Assembly (NCBI GenBank): GCA_018822665.1
Contig: JAHJJX010000027.1
Span: 434,001 to 498,000, forward strand
DNA from: a bacterium
GTDB lineage: Bacteria > Campylobacterota > Campylobacteria > Campylobacterales > Sulfurimonadaceae
Reading direction: 5' to 3'
Length of the DNA stretch: 64,000 nt
The notes under the pieces were generated by a model. The model searched no databases and was not told where the DNA came from. It saw nothing but the letters and a program-made list of their open reading frames with translations. Positions 15,071 through 64,000 of the stretch are shown piece after piece. Each line of letters begins with the position of its first letter. The first letter of the stretch is position 1. Position numbers and translations under genes: made by a program.

Positions 15071-15166
15071 TTTTGGTTCCACATGCCAAGCTTGCTTCCA
15101 CATGCCAAGATGCTTCCACATGCCAAGATGCTTCCACATGCCAAGATGCTTCCACATGCCATCTAC
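15071..15166 (-). repeat. Tandem array of five GGCATGTGG words with 18-base period
   Basis: Five copies of the minus-strand word GGCATGTGG at 15079, 15098, 15116, 15134 and 15152 (plus-strand starts), spaced 19, 18, 18 and 18 bases. The unit on the plus strand is TGCTTCCACATGCCAAGA. The middle three units are identical. This is the only tandem arrangement of the word in the window and it lies between the nifH leader and the end of the peroxiredoxin gene. The unit is too short and lacks spacers for a CRISPR. Confidence 0.95.
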
Positions 15167-44975: not shown

Positions 44976-46820
44976 ATGCAAACAAAATCAAAACTCCTTC
45001 TTATCGTATCTTTTATGTTGCTTGGTTTGGCCGTGGCAACAATCATTAATGTTTCTCTTAACTTCAGAGAATACAGCATTAACAGCGCTATTGAAAAATC
45101 GAAAATGGCGGCAAACATTGTAAGAGACGGGTTAACTGCCCACATGGTAAATGGGGTTATGGATAAAAGACAATACTTTTTAGACCAGATATCTACAAAC
45201 CGTTCCATTAAATCACTCTGGATTGTACGTTCAGAAAATGTTATACAGCAATACGGAGACGGTTTTCACAGCGAATCTGTCCGAGACGCGATAGATTCGC
45301 AAGTTCTTAAAACAGGAAATGTGCTTCAGCAAATTACCGAAGAAACTGAGAATATTCTTTTAAGAATCACCATCCCTTATAAAGCGGATGTAACATCGGG
45401 AACTTCAAACTGTTTGAATTGTCATGACGTAAAGATGGGAGACACCCTTGGTGCCGTGAGTATGGAGTTTGACATCAGCGCGATGAGAAGCAGCGGATTT
45501 TTCACTATTTTAAAAATCCTTGGAATCAATCTTCTTTTTATAATTGTGGCACTCTTTCTTATAAATTATTATGTTACCCCTTACATGAAACTTTTTACAA
45601 ATTTGCAAACTGGAATAAAAAAAGCATACCGTGGCGATTTTACACATACATTTTCAACTACCGTAAAGGGAGACGGAAAAAGTATCGTTGATCAGATGAA
45701 CACCCTCTTTAGAAAAATGCAAGAAACTTTCGGTGATATAAAATATAATCTCGCAACTTTCATTCCTCAAGGATGCACCTCTTCATCGGACCCTCTGTAT
45801 GAAGCAAAAACAATAATAAGCGAACTTTCCGATATCTATAAATTTAAAAAAACGATAGAGCTTGATTTAACAAAAAATGATGTTTATTCAAGAATTATTG
45901 ATGTTTTAAAATTTAAATACCAGCTGAGCCATTTTGCATTTTACGAAATAAATAATACAACAATGGAGAGAAAATTAATCTATATCAGCCATGGTGAAAG
46001 CATTTGTCATGAGTTTATCAATAAAGACTCTTCTCTTTGCAGGGCATACAGAACAAAAACAGATGTAATTTCCACTGAGTTTGTGAATCTCTGTCAAACA
46101 TGCAATGCAAAAGAATTAAAATACATATGCATCCCCTTTACAATCAACGATGATGCTTCTTTAGTTTTATCAATCACAACAAACACTGAAGCCGAGTTAA
46201 ATAAAATCAGTATGCAAGCTACAAGCATTAAAAATTATATAGAAGCTGCAAAACCCGTCATAGAAAGTAAATTGCTTATGGACAAGCTACGCGACACATC
46301 TCTAAGAGACGGGATGACCGGGCTTTACAATAGAAGATTTTTAGAAGAGTTTATAGACCAGGTAATGAGTCAGGCAAGCAGGTCAAAAGACACCTATTCC
46401 GTAATGATGCTGGATGTAGATTTCTTCAAAATGGTGAACGATACATACGGGCATGATGTTGGAGATAAAGTGATAGTAGCCTTAGCAGGTGTGATAAAAG
46501 AAAATATTCGCGAATCAGATTTGGCAATACGCTACGGCGGCGAAGAGTTTGTTTTAATGTTGCATAATGCGAATGATGAGGGAAGTTTAAAAGTAGCACA
46601 AAAAATCCATTCCGGTTTTGGCAATCTCATCTTTGATGTAGGAGTCGGCGAAACAATGCAAAAAACCATCAGTATTGGTATAGCTAAATTTCCTAGTGAT
46701 GGAGACAGCATTTGGAAATGTATCAAGTATGCAGATACAGCTTTATACAGTGCTAAAAATACGGGAAGAAATAAGATAGTTGAATTTAAGGCAGAGATGT
46801 TTAGCGGCGAAGAGTTTTAA
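44976..46820 (+). CDS. Diguanylate cyclase with periplasmic CxxCH (heme-type) sensor
   Basis: A 614-residue membrane signalling protein. TM1 is about residues 7-27 and TM2 about 174-199. The periplasmic part between them carries a single c-type heme site, C146-L-N-C149-H150 (SNCLNCHDVKMGDTLG). A HAMP-like linker and a ~200-residue cytoplasmic region follow, with a Cys-rich patch (FVNLCQTCNAKELKYICIPF), and the GGDEF domain has RYGGEEF, the active GGEEF form. It probably makes cyclic-di-GMP in response to redox state, oxygen or nitric oxide sensed by the heme. Confidence 0.9.
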   Translation: MQTKSKLLLIVSFMLLGLAVATIINVSLNFREYSINSAIEKSKMAANIVRDGLTAHMVNGVMDKRQYFLDQISTNRSIKSLWIVRSENVIQQYGDGFHSESVRDAIDSQVLKTGNVLQQITEETENILLRITIPYKADVTSGTSNCLNCHDVKMGDTLGAVSMEFDISAMRSSGFFTILKILGINLLFIIVALFLINYYVTPYMKLFTNLQTGIKKAYRGDFTHTFSTTVKGDGKSIVDQMNTLFRKMQETFGDIKYNLATFIPQGCTSSSDPLYEAKTIISELSDIYKFKKTIELDLTKNDVYSRIIDVLKFKYQLSHFAFYEINNTTMERKLIYISHGESICHEFINKDSSLCRAYRTKTDVISTEFVNLCQTCNAKELKYICIPFTINDDASLVLSITTNTEAELNKISMQATSIKNYIEAAKPVIESKLLMDKLRDTSLRDGMTGLYNRRFLEEFIDQVMSQASRSKDTYSVMMLDVDFFKMVNDTYGHDVGDKVIVALAGVIKENIRESDLAIRYGGEEFVLMLHNANDEGSLKVAQKIHSGFGNLIFDVGVGETMQKTISIGIAKFPSDGDSIWKCIKYADTALYSAKNTGRNKIVEFKAEMFSGEEF

Positions 46821-46821
46821 A

Positions 46822-46861
46822 GTTTCGTTCCACATGCCGCGCGCGGCATGTGGAACGAAAC
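46822..46861. terminator. Perfect 40-bp palindrome built from two GGCATGTGG words
   Basis: GTTTCGTTCCACATGCCGCG (46822-46841) is followed directly by its exact reverse complement (46842-46861). It starts two bases after the GGDEF stop and ends 26 bases before the stop of the convergent mrp gene. The folded RNA would be a very stable hairpin, and on both strands the sequence continues with T/A-rich bases, so it would serve as a two-way terminator. Paired uptake words forming terminators are a hallmark of Neisseria and Haemophilus. Confidence 0.85.
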
Positions 46862-46887: not shown

Positions 46888-48051
46888 TTAGTGACAACCA
46901 CATCCTGAATCACTTTTTTGAGGAGCTTGCTGTTTTGGAGCAGCAGCAGTTGAACAAGCGCTTACACCCGGAGCTGTTGTTGGCTGAACTGCCTGATTGT
47001 CAACTCCGCCGTTTGCGTTAATCTCTTCTATTGTCGCCCAGATAGACTCAGCGGCAGCCATATAGCGTTTTGCACTCTCAGAGTTTGGAGATACAAAAGT
47101 GATAGGTTTTCCTTCATCACCACCTGTTCTGATTGCAGGCTCGATAGGGATTTCGGCAATAATTTTAGTGTTAAATTCATTTGCCATAGGAGTCGAGGTT
47201 CCTTTTCCGAAAATATCGTACTCCACCCCTGTATCGGGAGCAATAAATCCGCTCATATTTTCAATAATACCGGCTATTGGAATATGTAATTTTTTAAACA
47301 TATCCAAAGAACGGCGAGAATCATCTAACGAAACACCTTGTGGAGTTGTCACGGTCAAACCGACCGTAACGGGAACACTTTGAGCCAAAGTAAGCTGTGC
47401 ATCACCGGTTCCAGGAGGCATATCGATAACTAAAACATCAAGCTCAGACCATAAAATGTCTCTTAAGAACTGCTCAATCGCTTTCATAATCATAGCCCCG
47501 CGCCAAATTAAAGACTGCCCCGGCTCCATCAAAGAACCCATAGACATAATCTCAATTCCGTACGCTTTAATCGGAAGAACTTTATTCCCGTTCACTTCTG
47601 GTTTAATATCTGATATTCCCATCATACGAGGAATATTCGGACCATAAATATCCGCATCCAAAAGACCCACTTTTTTTCCCTGAGCGGCAAGCGCGATAGC
47701 AATATTCACCGATGTCGTTGATTTACCGACTCCACCCTTGCCCGAACTTACCATTAAAAAATTTTTCACTTGCGGAGCAATATTTTTTCCGCGAGATGAA
47801 CTCTCTTTTGGCATTTTAGGAGAGCGTACATTTGCGGACACGTTTGCGGCACCTACTGCTTTTAACTCTGCAACTGCATCATCACTTATCTGCTGAGCAA
47901 CCTCCGGAGCACTTGAAGTTATCTCCACATTAAAACTTACATCATTTCCATTTATTACTATATTATTTACAAATCCGAAAGTAACGATATCCTTGGTAAA
48001 ACCCGGATAAAGAACTTTTGAAAGTGCCGATTTTACAATTTCTTCAGTCAT
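46888..48051 (-). CDS. mrp: Mrp/NBP35-family Fe-S cluster carrier ATPase
   Basis: A 387-residue protein. It has a DUF59-type N-terminal domain, then the deviant Walker A SSGKGGVGKST (102-112), LLDADIYGPNIPRM and VIDMPPGTGDAQL. The C-terminal tail is Ala/Gln-rich and ends CGCH, with a lone C earlier (VSACST); the usual central CxxC is not seen, so the tail may carry cluster ligands. It delivers Fe-S clusters to apoproteins. It converges on the GGDEF gene. Confidence 0.92.
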   Translation of the reverse strand: MTEEIVKSALSKVLYPGFTKDIVTFGFVNNIVINGNDVSFNVEITSSAPEVAQQISDDAVAELKAVGAANVSANVRSPKMPKESSSRGKNIAPQVKNFLMVSSGKGGVGKSTTSVNIAIALAAQGKKVGLLDADIYGPNIPRMMGISDIKPEVNGNKVLPIKAYGIEIMSMGSLMEPGQSLIWRGAMIMKAIEQFLRDILWSELDVLVIDMPPGTGDAQLTLAQSVPVTVGLTVTTPQGVSLDDSRRSLDMFKKLHIPIAGIIENMSGFIAPDTGVEYDIFGKGTSTPMANEFNTKIIAEIPIEPAIRTGGDEGKPITFVSPNSESAKRYMAAAESIWATIEEINANGGVDNQAVQPTTAPGVSACSTAAAPKQQAPQKSDSGCGCH

Positions 48052-56141: not shown

Positions 56142-58037
56142 TTATATAACCGATACAGTTGTAACACTTGCCAACTCTTGCAAAGCATTTATCTTGTCGT
56201 TATCATCTGCGAAACAGCCGTCTTTTAGAACGACTTGGTAGGGTTTGAGTTTTTTTATCTCTTGGATGGCAGCTTGTGAGATAGTGTCTTCAAGACATGC
56301 TATGAGTTCGTTGTTTTCTAGCAGGTAGAGTTTTGTGCCCTCCACTGTTTGGGGTGTTATTTTGAGTGAAAGCTCTATGCCGAGGTCGAGCATTATTTGA
56401 AACAGCAAATCTAGGTCGGTTCTCTCTTCTTTGATATTTGTTTGAAAGTCAAAAATATCTTTTTGTGTAAGATTGTTTGGATGATAATAAACATCTTTGA
56501 AATTTGTGGTGTCGAGTCTTAGAACTCTAAAGCCGATGTCAAGATTGCCGTCATTGCGAGGCTTTGCCGAAGCAATCTTCATTTCGTCGTTGCGAGGCTT
56601 TGCCGAAGCAATCTCTTGTGTTATTTTAGCTCCCGCACGGCGGATTCTCTCTTTGCCTATCTCACAAATATTTTTATATCCCGCCTTGAAAGCCTCACTT
56701 TTTTCATCGGTCGCTTCAGGGAGTTGCACCATGATAAACTTACGATTTCCGCCATCTTCAGAGTTTAGTTGCATGACGGCATGTGCGGTTGTGGCTGAAC
56801 CGCTGAAGAAGTCGAGGATTATTTCATTGTCATTGTTTTGGAGATGAAATAATAGTTTTTTGATTAATGTCGTAGGTTTTACTGTTTCAAAATCATGTTC
56901 TTTTGTGTCAAGTGTTTCCGATAATTCCGTTTTTCCTGTTTCTGCCGTTCCGTAAGCTTCTTTATTAAAAAAATGAGACCAAAAAGGATAATACTTTTTT
57001 ATATCTTCATCTTCTGGTCGTATTTTGAAAAAAACCTTATTATCAATTCTAACAATATCATTTCTCAGTAAGAATTCATTAATAGTATCTTGTCCAACTT
57101 TCCATTGTTTATTCTCATTTGGCAAAATTCCTAAAATTGGATATATCATGGTAGCTCGTCCTCTCATACCTAGAGCAGACATTTCCTCTATCAATTTATA
57201 TCTAAATACACCTCTTTCATCGTCCAAGTCATAATTTTTATTACCAGACACCTCTAAATTAAATCTAATTTTATTTATATTTTTTTTGTAAGTTAATATA
57301 TATTCTGTTTTAGATTGAAACATATTTTTTGCATCAAGAGTATTTTGTGCTTTGGTTCGTTTTTCCCAAGTAATATTCCCTACAAAATTCCCTTCCCCAA
57401 AAACCTCATCACAAATCTTTCTCAAATTGTGCACTTCGTTATCATCTATGCTTATAAAAATTACCCCATCCTCTTTGAGTAAATCCCTCGCCACCAAAAG
57501 CCTTTCATACATCATGCTCAGCCAGTCGCTATGAAATCTTCCGTTGCTGTCCGTGTTTTTAAAGAGTTTGTTTCCCTCTTCATCTCTCATTCTAATCGCA
57601 TCTTCAAAATCTGCTTTACTTTGCGTAAAGTTGTCACGGTAAACAAAATCTTTGCCCGTGTTATACGGCGGGTCGATGTAAATCATCTTGATTTTGTTTA
57701 AGTAACTCTCACTTAAAAGCTTCAACACTTCAAAGTTATCGCCCTCGATGTAGAGATTTTGCGTGTTCTCAAAATCGACACTCTCATTTACGCATGGGCG
57801 CAGGGTTTTATTTATACTGCTGTTTGCTTTGAGAAGTGAGGCTTTTTTACCCACCCAGTCAAGGCGGTATCGCTCCTCATCGCCCTCGACTATACTCTCG
57901 CTGAGTATTTGTCTGAGCAAATCAAAATCTATTTTACTTTCACTCACGGCATGTGGAAATAGCTCCTTGAGTATTTCCACATGCCGATTAGTTTTGTTTG
58001 GTGTTTGCATCTCTAATTTTTTAATCTTTTGCATCAT
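56142..58037 (-). CDS. Type III methyltransferase (Mod) of the second system, with in-frame repeat insert
   Basis: A 631-residue beta-class adenine methyltransferase. Motif IV is IDPPYNTG (121-128); motif I is DFFSGSATTAHAV near residue 405-415; the AT-rich recognition segment lies between. At about residues 475-497 two tandem copies of a ~30-base repeat add IASAKPRND twice, just before the family segment LDIGFRVLRLD. Two GGCATGTGG words in inverted order (57948, 57977) form a 14-bp stem within the first 40 codons. It overlaps the DUF4391 gene by 17 bases. Confidence 0.9.
   Translation of the reverse strand: MMQKIKKLEMQTPNKTNRHVEILKELFPHAVSESKIDFDLLRQILSESIVEGDEERYRLDWVGKKASLLKANSSINKTLRPCVNESVDFENTQNLYIEGDNFEVLKLLSESYLNKIKMIYIDPPYNTGKDFVYRDNFTQSKADFEDAIRMRDEEGNKLFKNTDSNGRFHSDWLSMMYERLLVARDLLKEDGVIFISIDDNEVHNLRKICDEVFGEGNFVGNITWEKRTKAQNTLDAKNMFQSKTEYILTYKKNINKIRFNLEVSGNKNYDLDDERGVFRYKLIEEMSALGMRGRATMIYPILGILPNENKQWKVGQDTINEFLLRNDIVRIDNKVFFKIRPEDEDIKKYYPFWSHFFNKEAYGTAETGKTELSETLDTKEHDFETVKPTTLIKKLLFHLQNNDNEIILDFFSGSATTAHAVMQLNSEDGGNRKFIMVQLPEATDEKSEAFKAGYKNICEIGKERIRRAGAKITQEIASAKPRNDEMKIASAKPRNDGNLDIGFRVLRLDTTNFKDVYYHPNNLTQKDIFDFQTNIKEERTDLDLLFQIMLDLGIELSLKITPQTVEGTKLYLLENNELIACLEDTISQAAIQEIKKLKPYQVVLKDGCFADDNDKINALQELASVTTVSVI
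56549..56614 (-). repeat. Two tandem copies of a dispersed-type repeat inside mod
   Basis: Plus-strand copies at 56549-56578 and 56585-56614, 36 bases (12 codons) apart and differing at one base. Each reads CGTCATTGCGAGGC then TTTGCCGAAGCAATCT. Words of the kind GTCATTGCGAGG...GAAGCAATC are widespread intergenic repeats in many bacteria. Here the frame is kept, as with Rickettsia palindromic elements that sit within genes. Confidence 0.85.
57948..57985. repeat. Inverted pair of GGCATGTGG words inside mod
   Basis: GGCATGTGGAAATA (57948-57961) and TATTTCCACATGCC (57972-57985) form a perfect 14-bp stem with a 10-base loop. The gene reads them as RHVE and PHA. It would give a strong hairpin near the 5' end of the mod message. 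Confidence 0.85.
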
Positions 58038-63512: not shown

Positions 63513-64000
63513 TTATCCTTGTATAGCTTTATACGCTTTATTTGTTAGTTTTTCAATTATATCGTCGTAACTTGTATAGCTAACACCAAGCTCACTCGCC
63601 CTTGTCTTGAGTGCGGAATACTCTTTTTCATTTTTCATGTCAAAATTAAAAACCGGCAGTTTGGTAATCATAGCTAAATTATTCATATTTGAAAAGTCTA
63701 AAACTGCCTCAAAATGAGACAACTCAGAATCCATACCACTTGATAAACGGTTTAAATCAGCATCTTTTAATTCTACCTCATTACTAAAGAGCATAAGCCC
63801 TTCAAGGTTGTCATTAAAGTAACTCACTTCAAATCCACATGCCAAGAATGAAAAAGCTTTGGCATGTGGAGTTGTTCCTAGGAGTGCTATTTTAGAAATA
63901 TTTAAATCTTTTAAATACTCAAGCAATACTCTCATGCCGTAGATATCACCTCTGAGCTTTTCACCCTCGCGAAACACGATATCGCACATACCGCTTCTTT
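63513..64000 (-). CDS. AroE-like (shikimate dehydrogenase-type) protein, C-terminal part
   Basis: The frame is open to the window edge, so the true start lies outside; an internal ATG at 63989 is not needed. The visible ~162 residues look like the second, nucleotide-binding half of a shikimate-dehydrogenase-type protein: CDIVFREGEKLRGDIYGMRV, then IALLGTTPHAKAFSFLACGF (a Rossmann turn lacking the full GxGxxG) and LDFSNMNNLAM. The weak Rossmann motif makes enzymatic assignment uncertain. Two inverted GGCATGTGG words lie inside (63835, 63861). Confidence 0.5.
   Translation of the reverse strand, partial: RSGMCDIVFREGEKLRGDIYGMRVLLEYLKDLNISKIALLGTTPHAKAFSFLACGFEVSYFNDNLEGLMLFSNEVELKDADLNRLSSGMDSELSHFEAVLDFSNMNNLAMITKLPVFNFDMKNEKEYSALKTRASELGVSYTSYDDIIEKLTNKAYKAIQG
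63834..63870. repeat. Inverted pair of GGCATGTGG words inside the AroE-like gene
   Basis: TCCACATGCCAA (63834-63845) and TTGGCATGTGGA (63859-63870) form a perfect 12-bp stem with a 13-base loop. The gene reads them as ACG and PHA. With the pairs at 46830/46845 and 57948/57977 this is the third inverted pair in the window. Confidence 0.85.

Follow-up and report, generated by a model that had tools for sequence, protein, structure and literature searches.

We propose, with a probability of roughly two in three, that the perfect 40-bp palindrome at positions 46822–46861 of the window (here, the whole 64,000-nucleotide stretch of DNA that was analysed) acts as a two-way 3′-end hairpin common to a GGDEF gene and the convergent mrp gene, and that it was assembled from recruited copies of a putative uptake word. 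Its assignment as a 3′-end hairpin is well supported, and the word CCACATGCC from which it is made is, judging from its distribution, a plausible candidate DNA-uptake word. Transcription from either side would produce a GC-rich stem that most likely halts RNA polymerase, or sets or protects the RNA 3′ end, and the convergent GGDEF and mrp transcripts would consequently be kept from running into each other. The palindrome is built of two inverted copies of the genome-wide word TTCCACATGCCAAG, which was most likely spread and kept through the preference of competent cells for word-bearing DNA, and word pairs would later have been recruited, repeatedly, as 3′-end hairpins.

The palindrome and its neighbouring genes

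The original prediction that two inverted CCACATGCC words form a perfect 40-bp palindrome, with one full word and matching flanks in each arm, was confirmed. Indeed, the 20-nt arms (GTTTCGTTCCACATGCCGCG followed directly by CGCGGCATGTGGAACGAAAC) are 100% complementary with no spacer, and they pair 8 bases outward past the 9-base word, which random word flanks do in 0.1–0.3% of draws; among the short-range inverted repeats of the 64-kb window, this palindrome is the strongest. It had also been placed exactly between the convergent gene ends, which holds as far as both flanking stops are concerned, but the palindrome lies off-centre and abuts the GGDEF stop. The features of the junction are the following:

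44976–46820, + strand: GGDEF (diguanylate cyclase domain) gene (ORF, Pfam GGDEF), with its stop 2 nt before the palindrome
46822–46861, no strand: perfect 40-bp palindrome at the convergent gene ends (inverted-repeat search)
46830–46838, + strand: word CCACATGCC, copy 1, in the extended form TTCCACATGCCG (word search)
46845–46853, − strand: word CCACATGCC, copy 2, inverted, 6 nt (GCGCGC) from copy 1 (word search)
46888–48051, − strand: mrp / NUBPL-type Fe-S P-loop ATPase gene (ORF, ParA/NUBPL domain match), convergent, ending 26 nt after the palindrome

On both RNA strands, the palindrome is predicted to fold into an 18-bp stem with a 4-nt loop (folding energies of −36.6 and −33.2 kcal/mol, z of −6.3 and −7.5). 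When up to 3 mismatches were allowed, GTTCCACATGCCGCG gave 17 matches in the window against 0.58 expected from shuffles, so that the words of the palindrome are not there by chance. The window is part of contig C20 of a 2.51-Mb genome (G000), in which genes were called with a simple caller trained on a 464-kb sample of the same contig. Note that the background figures also derive from this sample, and that the related genomes are partly fragmented MAGs. Judged by the GGDEF gene, the named relatives are mostly Sulfurimonas MAGs, with ~69–74% protein identity to the closest.

A sharply defined word repeated across the genome

With 33 copies, CCACATGCC tops the 9-mer counts of the window. Genome-wide it occurs 905 times, 458 on the + and 447 on the − strand, whereas the reversed word, taken as a control, occurs 7 times; CCACATGCC therefore displays the hundreds of copies, far above chance and equally shared between strands, of an uptake-type word. 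The consensus is sharp, since the exact word was found 175 times in the 464-kb sample against 0–6 times for nearly every one-base variant. Its extended form is TTCCACATGCCAAG around the core CCACATGCC, or about TTCCACATGCC(A/G)(A)G when derived from the 464-kb stretch, in which conservation next to the core is limited to about TT on its upstream and AAG on its downstream side, with little shared further out. In the same sample of G000, GCACATGCC (25 copies) is the sole one-base variant clearly in excess.

Genes and intergenic DNA both contain words, the latter holding 50 of the 175 where 14.5 were expected. Single intergenic words favour gene ends and avoid promoter regions, reaching 2.04 per kb in convergent gaps versus 0.47 in divergent ones. 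The word also occurs five times in tandem, with an 18–19 bp period, in the intergenic region 15076–15160 of the window, and tandem arrays of up to ~16 copies with a 17–18 bp period were observed in other carriers (G322, contig C18; G289, contigs C13, C86 and C94).

Inverted word pairs concentrate behind stop codons

An inverted pair was defined as two opposed words with a gap of up to 30 nt, one overlap being merged in the count, and the expectation was computed from the density of words in genic and in intergenic DNA. Genome-wide, 50 distinct inverted pairs (27 −+ and 23 +−) were found against ~8 expected, an excess of about sixfold, and 43 of them are intergenic in a genome with a non-coding share of 8.3% (p = 2e-39). 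Two inverted pairs of the window overlap called genes:

57947–57986, no strand: inverted word pair, arms of 15 nt with 10 nt between; an ORF is called over the pair and its context is uncertain
63830–63874, no strand: inverted word pair, arms of 16 nt with 13 nt between; called as coding

The convergent gaps hold 19 of the 43 intergenic pairs (16.5% expected, p = 2e-5) and the divergent gaps only 3, while a facing stop codon lies within 50 nt of 38 of the 43 (25% expected, p = 6e-18). This concentration just after stop codons, which the original prediction had proposed to check, is also found in related carriers. Indeed, G289, G322, G350, G346, G337 and G313 contain 62, 90, 102, 69, 40 and 40 inverted pairs, respectively, where ~6–17 were expected (scaled word counts being used for five of these six expectations); of 36 pairs sampled in related carriers, 34 lie outside called coding sequence, and a stop was found within 50 nt for 26 of the 33 pairs with both neighbours known (p = 2e-10). 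The excess of pairs and their placement behind stops and between convergent genes are both features of uptake-word-pair terminators. In addition, the strongest hairpins at the convergent ends of the 464-kb sample are word-made, and the word is present in 12 of 37 hairpins.

Part of this placement can be explained by permissiveness, since unpaired intergenic words show a similar preference for gene ends and avoidance of divergent regions. In its full form, which we find quite improbable, this explanation would have words gather in the least constrained DNA behind stop codons, with pairs arising by chance or by local inverted duplication and playing no role in transcription. Direct word pairs (18, several belonging to tandem arrays) likewise exceed chance, and the lack of T-tract enrichment after word-pair stems (see below) is in line with such an origin. 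However, inverted pairs outnumber direct ones by 50 to 18, and 43 intergenic inverted pairs were seen against 5 expected even when the higher intergenic word density was allowed for. Pairs also lie nearer to stops than single intergenic words (38/43 versus 13/25, p = 0.0014), and base pairing in the stems continues beyond the words further than with random flanks (3.42 versus 2.40 bp and 2.33 versus 0.95 bp); both argue against a purely permissive origin.

A probable 3′-end hairpin without a T-rich tail

The palindrome had been called a terminator; its placement and structure agree with this term, but the T-rich tail is missing. After the word-pair stems of G000, T occurs 2.64 times per 8 nt versus 2.63 in the background, so that flanking A/T tails giving a U-tract were not found at these pairs, and the corresponding value in related genomes (2.89) is little above background. 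With no T-rich tail and neither pair orientation preferred, the designation as a terminator rests on position and structure. At the palindrome, the tails GCAGATATTTTT (+ strand) and TTTAAAACTCTT (− strand) are both weak and a simple terminator scan made no call, and a canonical Rho-independent terminator thus found no support. Some non-word hairpins behind codirectional genes of G000 carry T-rich tails (3.88 T per 8 nt).

Since the tails are not T-rich, termination may be brought about by the strength of the stem, or by Rho with subsequent trimming back to the stem. The second possibility would make the hairpin a 3′-end stabiliser, with transcription ending further on (e.g., through Rho) and exonucleases trimming the RNA to the stem. 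Stable stems located right behind stops without U-tracts (mean energy of word-pair hairpins, −21.7 kcal/mol) would suit such a role, but the clustering of pairs in convergent gaps suggests that read-through has to be blocked, and we consider such a stabilising role, in place of intrinsic termination, rather unlikely.

Comparison with known uptake-word systems

In Neisseria, the DUS GCCGTCTGAA occurs as hundreds of exact words on both strands, and its close inverted pairs form hairpins that are enriched in convergent gaps and after stop codons (PMC1852404; PMC3630211), with 226 pairs in the +− orientation versus 5 in the other and with A/T tails (PMC1852404). The word described here is likewise short, exact and strand-neutral, with close inverted pairs behind stops or between convergent genes. 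Unlike in Neisseria, its pairs are distributed as 23 +− versus 27 −+ and their tails are not enriched, the words number ~905 versus ~1,900, and both the phylum and the word are different. The orientation bias is weaker in Pasteurellaceae (50 versus 25 in H. influenzae and 6 versus 8 in H. ducreyi; PMC1852404), and our pairs resemble those of the USS (AAGTGCGGT) in this weak bias and in the similar number of words; the USS, however, has an extended A/T-rich downstream motif, in contrast to the short conserved flanks reported above. The parallel with the Neisseria and Haemophilus pair terminators therefore extends to arrangement and placement, and stops at the T-tail and the orientation bias of Neisseria. 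As in Rho-independent terminators, a stable GC-rich hairpin stands right behind the stops and would work in both directions between convergent genes, but the U-tract is not enriched. Overall, the palindrome resembles an uptake-word-pair terminator by its position and structure, the uptake role of the word being putative.

Is the word an uptake sequence?

The word is limited to a set of Sulfurimonas genomes and is nearly absent from the other Campylobacterota sampled. Related carriers contain 535–946 copies of its 11-base form, and intermediate counts (50–152) were obtained for G341, G339, G379, G413, G351, G404 and G315, which may mean that the word is decaying, that a near dialect is in use or that the assemblies are mixed. 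In G000, the longest word-free stretch (C20:179969–209664, loci L146–L147) covers 29.7 kb at 32.5% GC and is island-like, with genes for ArdC, a NERD/UvrD-like helicase, WYL, AAA_14 and DUF1848. This would suggest word scarcity in acquired DNA, yet other long gaps carry housekeeping genes. ComEC was found in 16 of the 16 genomes tested, with or without the word, which indicates that competence machinery is present but is not word-specific; in the window's genome, pilin-like genes lie near ComEC.

A pilin cluster present in 7 of 7 tested carriers was considered as a receptor candidate and dropped, because its ORFs read as a complete type II secretion operon in G000 and because non-carriers have comparable pilin pairs. 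These pairs are similarly spaced in the 7 carriers and in some non-carriers. In G000, locus L231 (C26:24001–42000) holds a complete-looking type II secretion operon beside a large secreted-type protein.

Other Sulfurimonas (L232–L243) carry a second word, the palindromic YTACATGTA, in hundreds of copies (as an example, 1026 in G129, 1141 in G300 and 1257 in G310, palindromic sites possibly being counted on both strands). The two words are mutually exclusive, since strong CCACATGCC carriers have YTACATGTA at background only and vice versa; they have an ACATG core in common, and many Sulfurimonas have neither. Note that 20-kb pieces gave weak signals in this dialect search and that 60–100 kb per genome settled the question. 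In Neisseriaceae, related species use differing DUS dialects with a short CTG core in common, usually with one main dialect per genome (PMC3630211). YTACATGTA and CCACATGCC look like such dialects, being similar words around one short core (ACATG instead of CTG), although one of the two is palindromic and neither is present in many members of the genus. A palindromic YTACATGTA would also fit a symmetric DNA-binding protein.

This last point bears on whether the word is an uptake sequence at all. It could instead be a binding site or a mobile repeat: it might serve in chromosome organisation or segregation, mark recombination hotspots, be linked to methylation or represent a REP-like element. 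We regard this explanation as doubtful but far from negligible. The palindromy of the word enriched in other Sulfurimonas (TTACATGTAA, CTACATGTAG) suggests a symmetric binding protein and is unusual among known uptake words. A KOPS- or Chi-like polarity was rejected, as strand use is about equal genome-wide and roughly balanced in every 58-kb block of the 464-kb sample; a mobile or REP element was also rejected, because conservation ends at ~14 bases, flanks are unrelated between copies, and Rfam gave no match around the palindrome. The spread of the word over genes and intergenic DNA, and its absence from the 30-kb island-like gap, also argue against a binding site or mobile repeat and would be consistent with an uptake word.

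Our judgement is evenly balanced on the broader proposal that an uptake-sequence system of its own exists in Sulfurimonas, in which at least two dialects with an ACATG core (TTCCACATGCC and YTACATGTA) exclude each other and pairs were recruited as two-way 3′-end hairpins devoid of a U-tract. In the open-licence literature, we found no report of uptake words in Sulfurimonas or Campylobacterota and, as far as found, uptake words and their reuse in terminators have been described in Neisseriaceae and Pasteurellaceae. If true, uptake words with recruitment into terminators would have originated independently a third time, outside these two families, and the pattern would be one that evolves repeatedly. 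In addition, as the genus includes carriers of either word and many species that lack both, dialect change, genetic isolation and receptor evolution could be studied in it directly. The hairpins without a U-tract also lead one to ask how transcripts are ended in the Sulfurimonas group.

Sequence turnover at the orthologous junction

At the orthologous GGDEF/mrp junction, word hairpins with differing loops and spacers were found in G346, G322 and G350, and among named loci in L040, L042 and L104; G322 has two word hairpins in a row, and one arm is imperfect in G350. The same junction has no word hairpin in the carriers G337, G313, G347 and G289, and several word-less named relatives (e.g., L060, L079 and L057) appear by eye, in an unscored comparison, to have unrelated hairpins there. 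The position at the junction is kept while the sequence is replaced, as one would expect of a 3′-end hairpin if any inverted repeat can serve to restore it. In L044 and L046, hairpins made of TTTCACWTGTC / GCATGTGAAA lie directly behind the GGDEF stop and possibly represent a third dialect.
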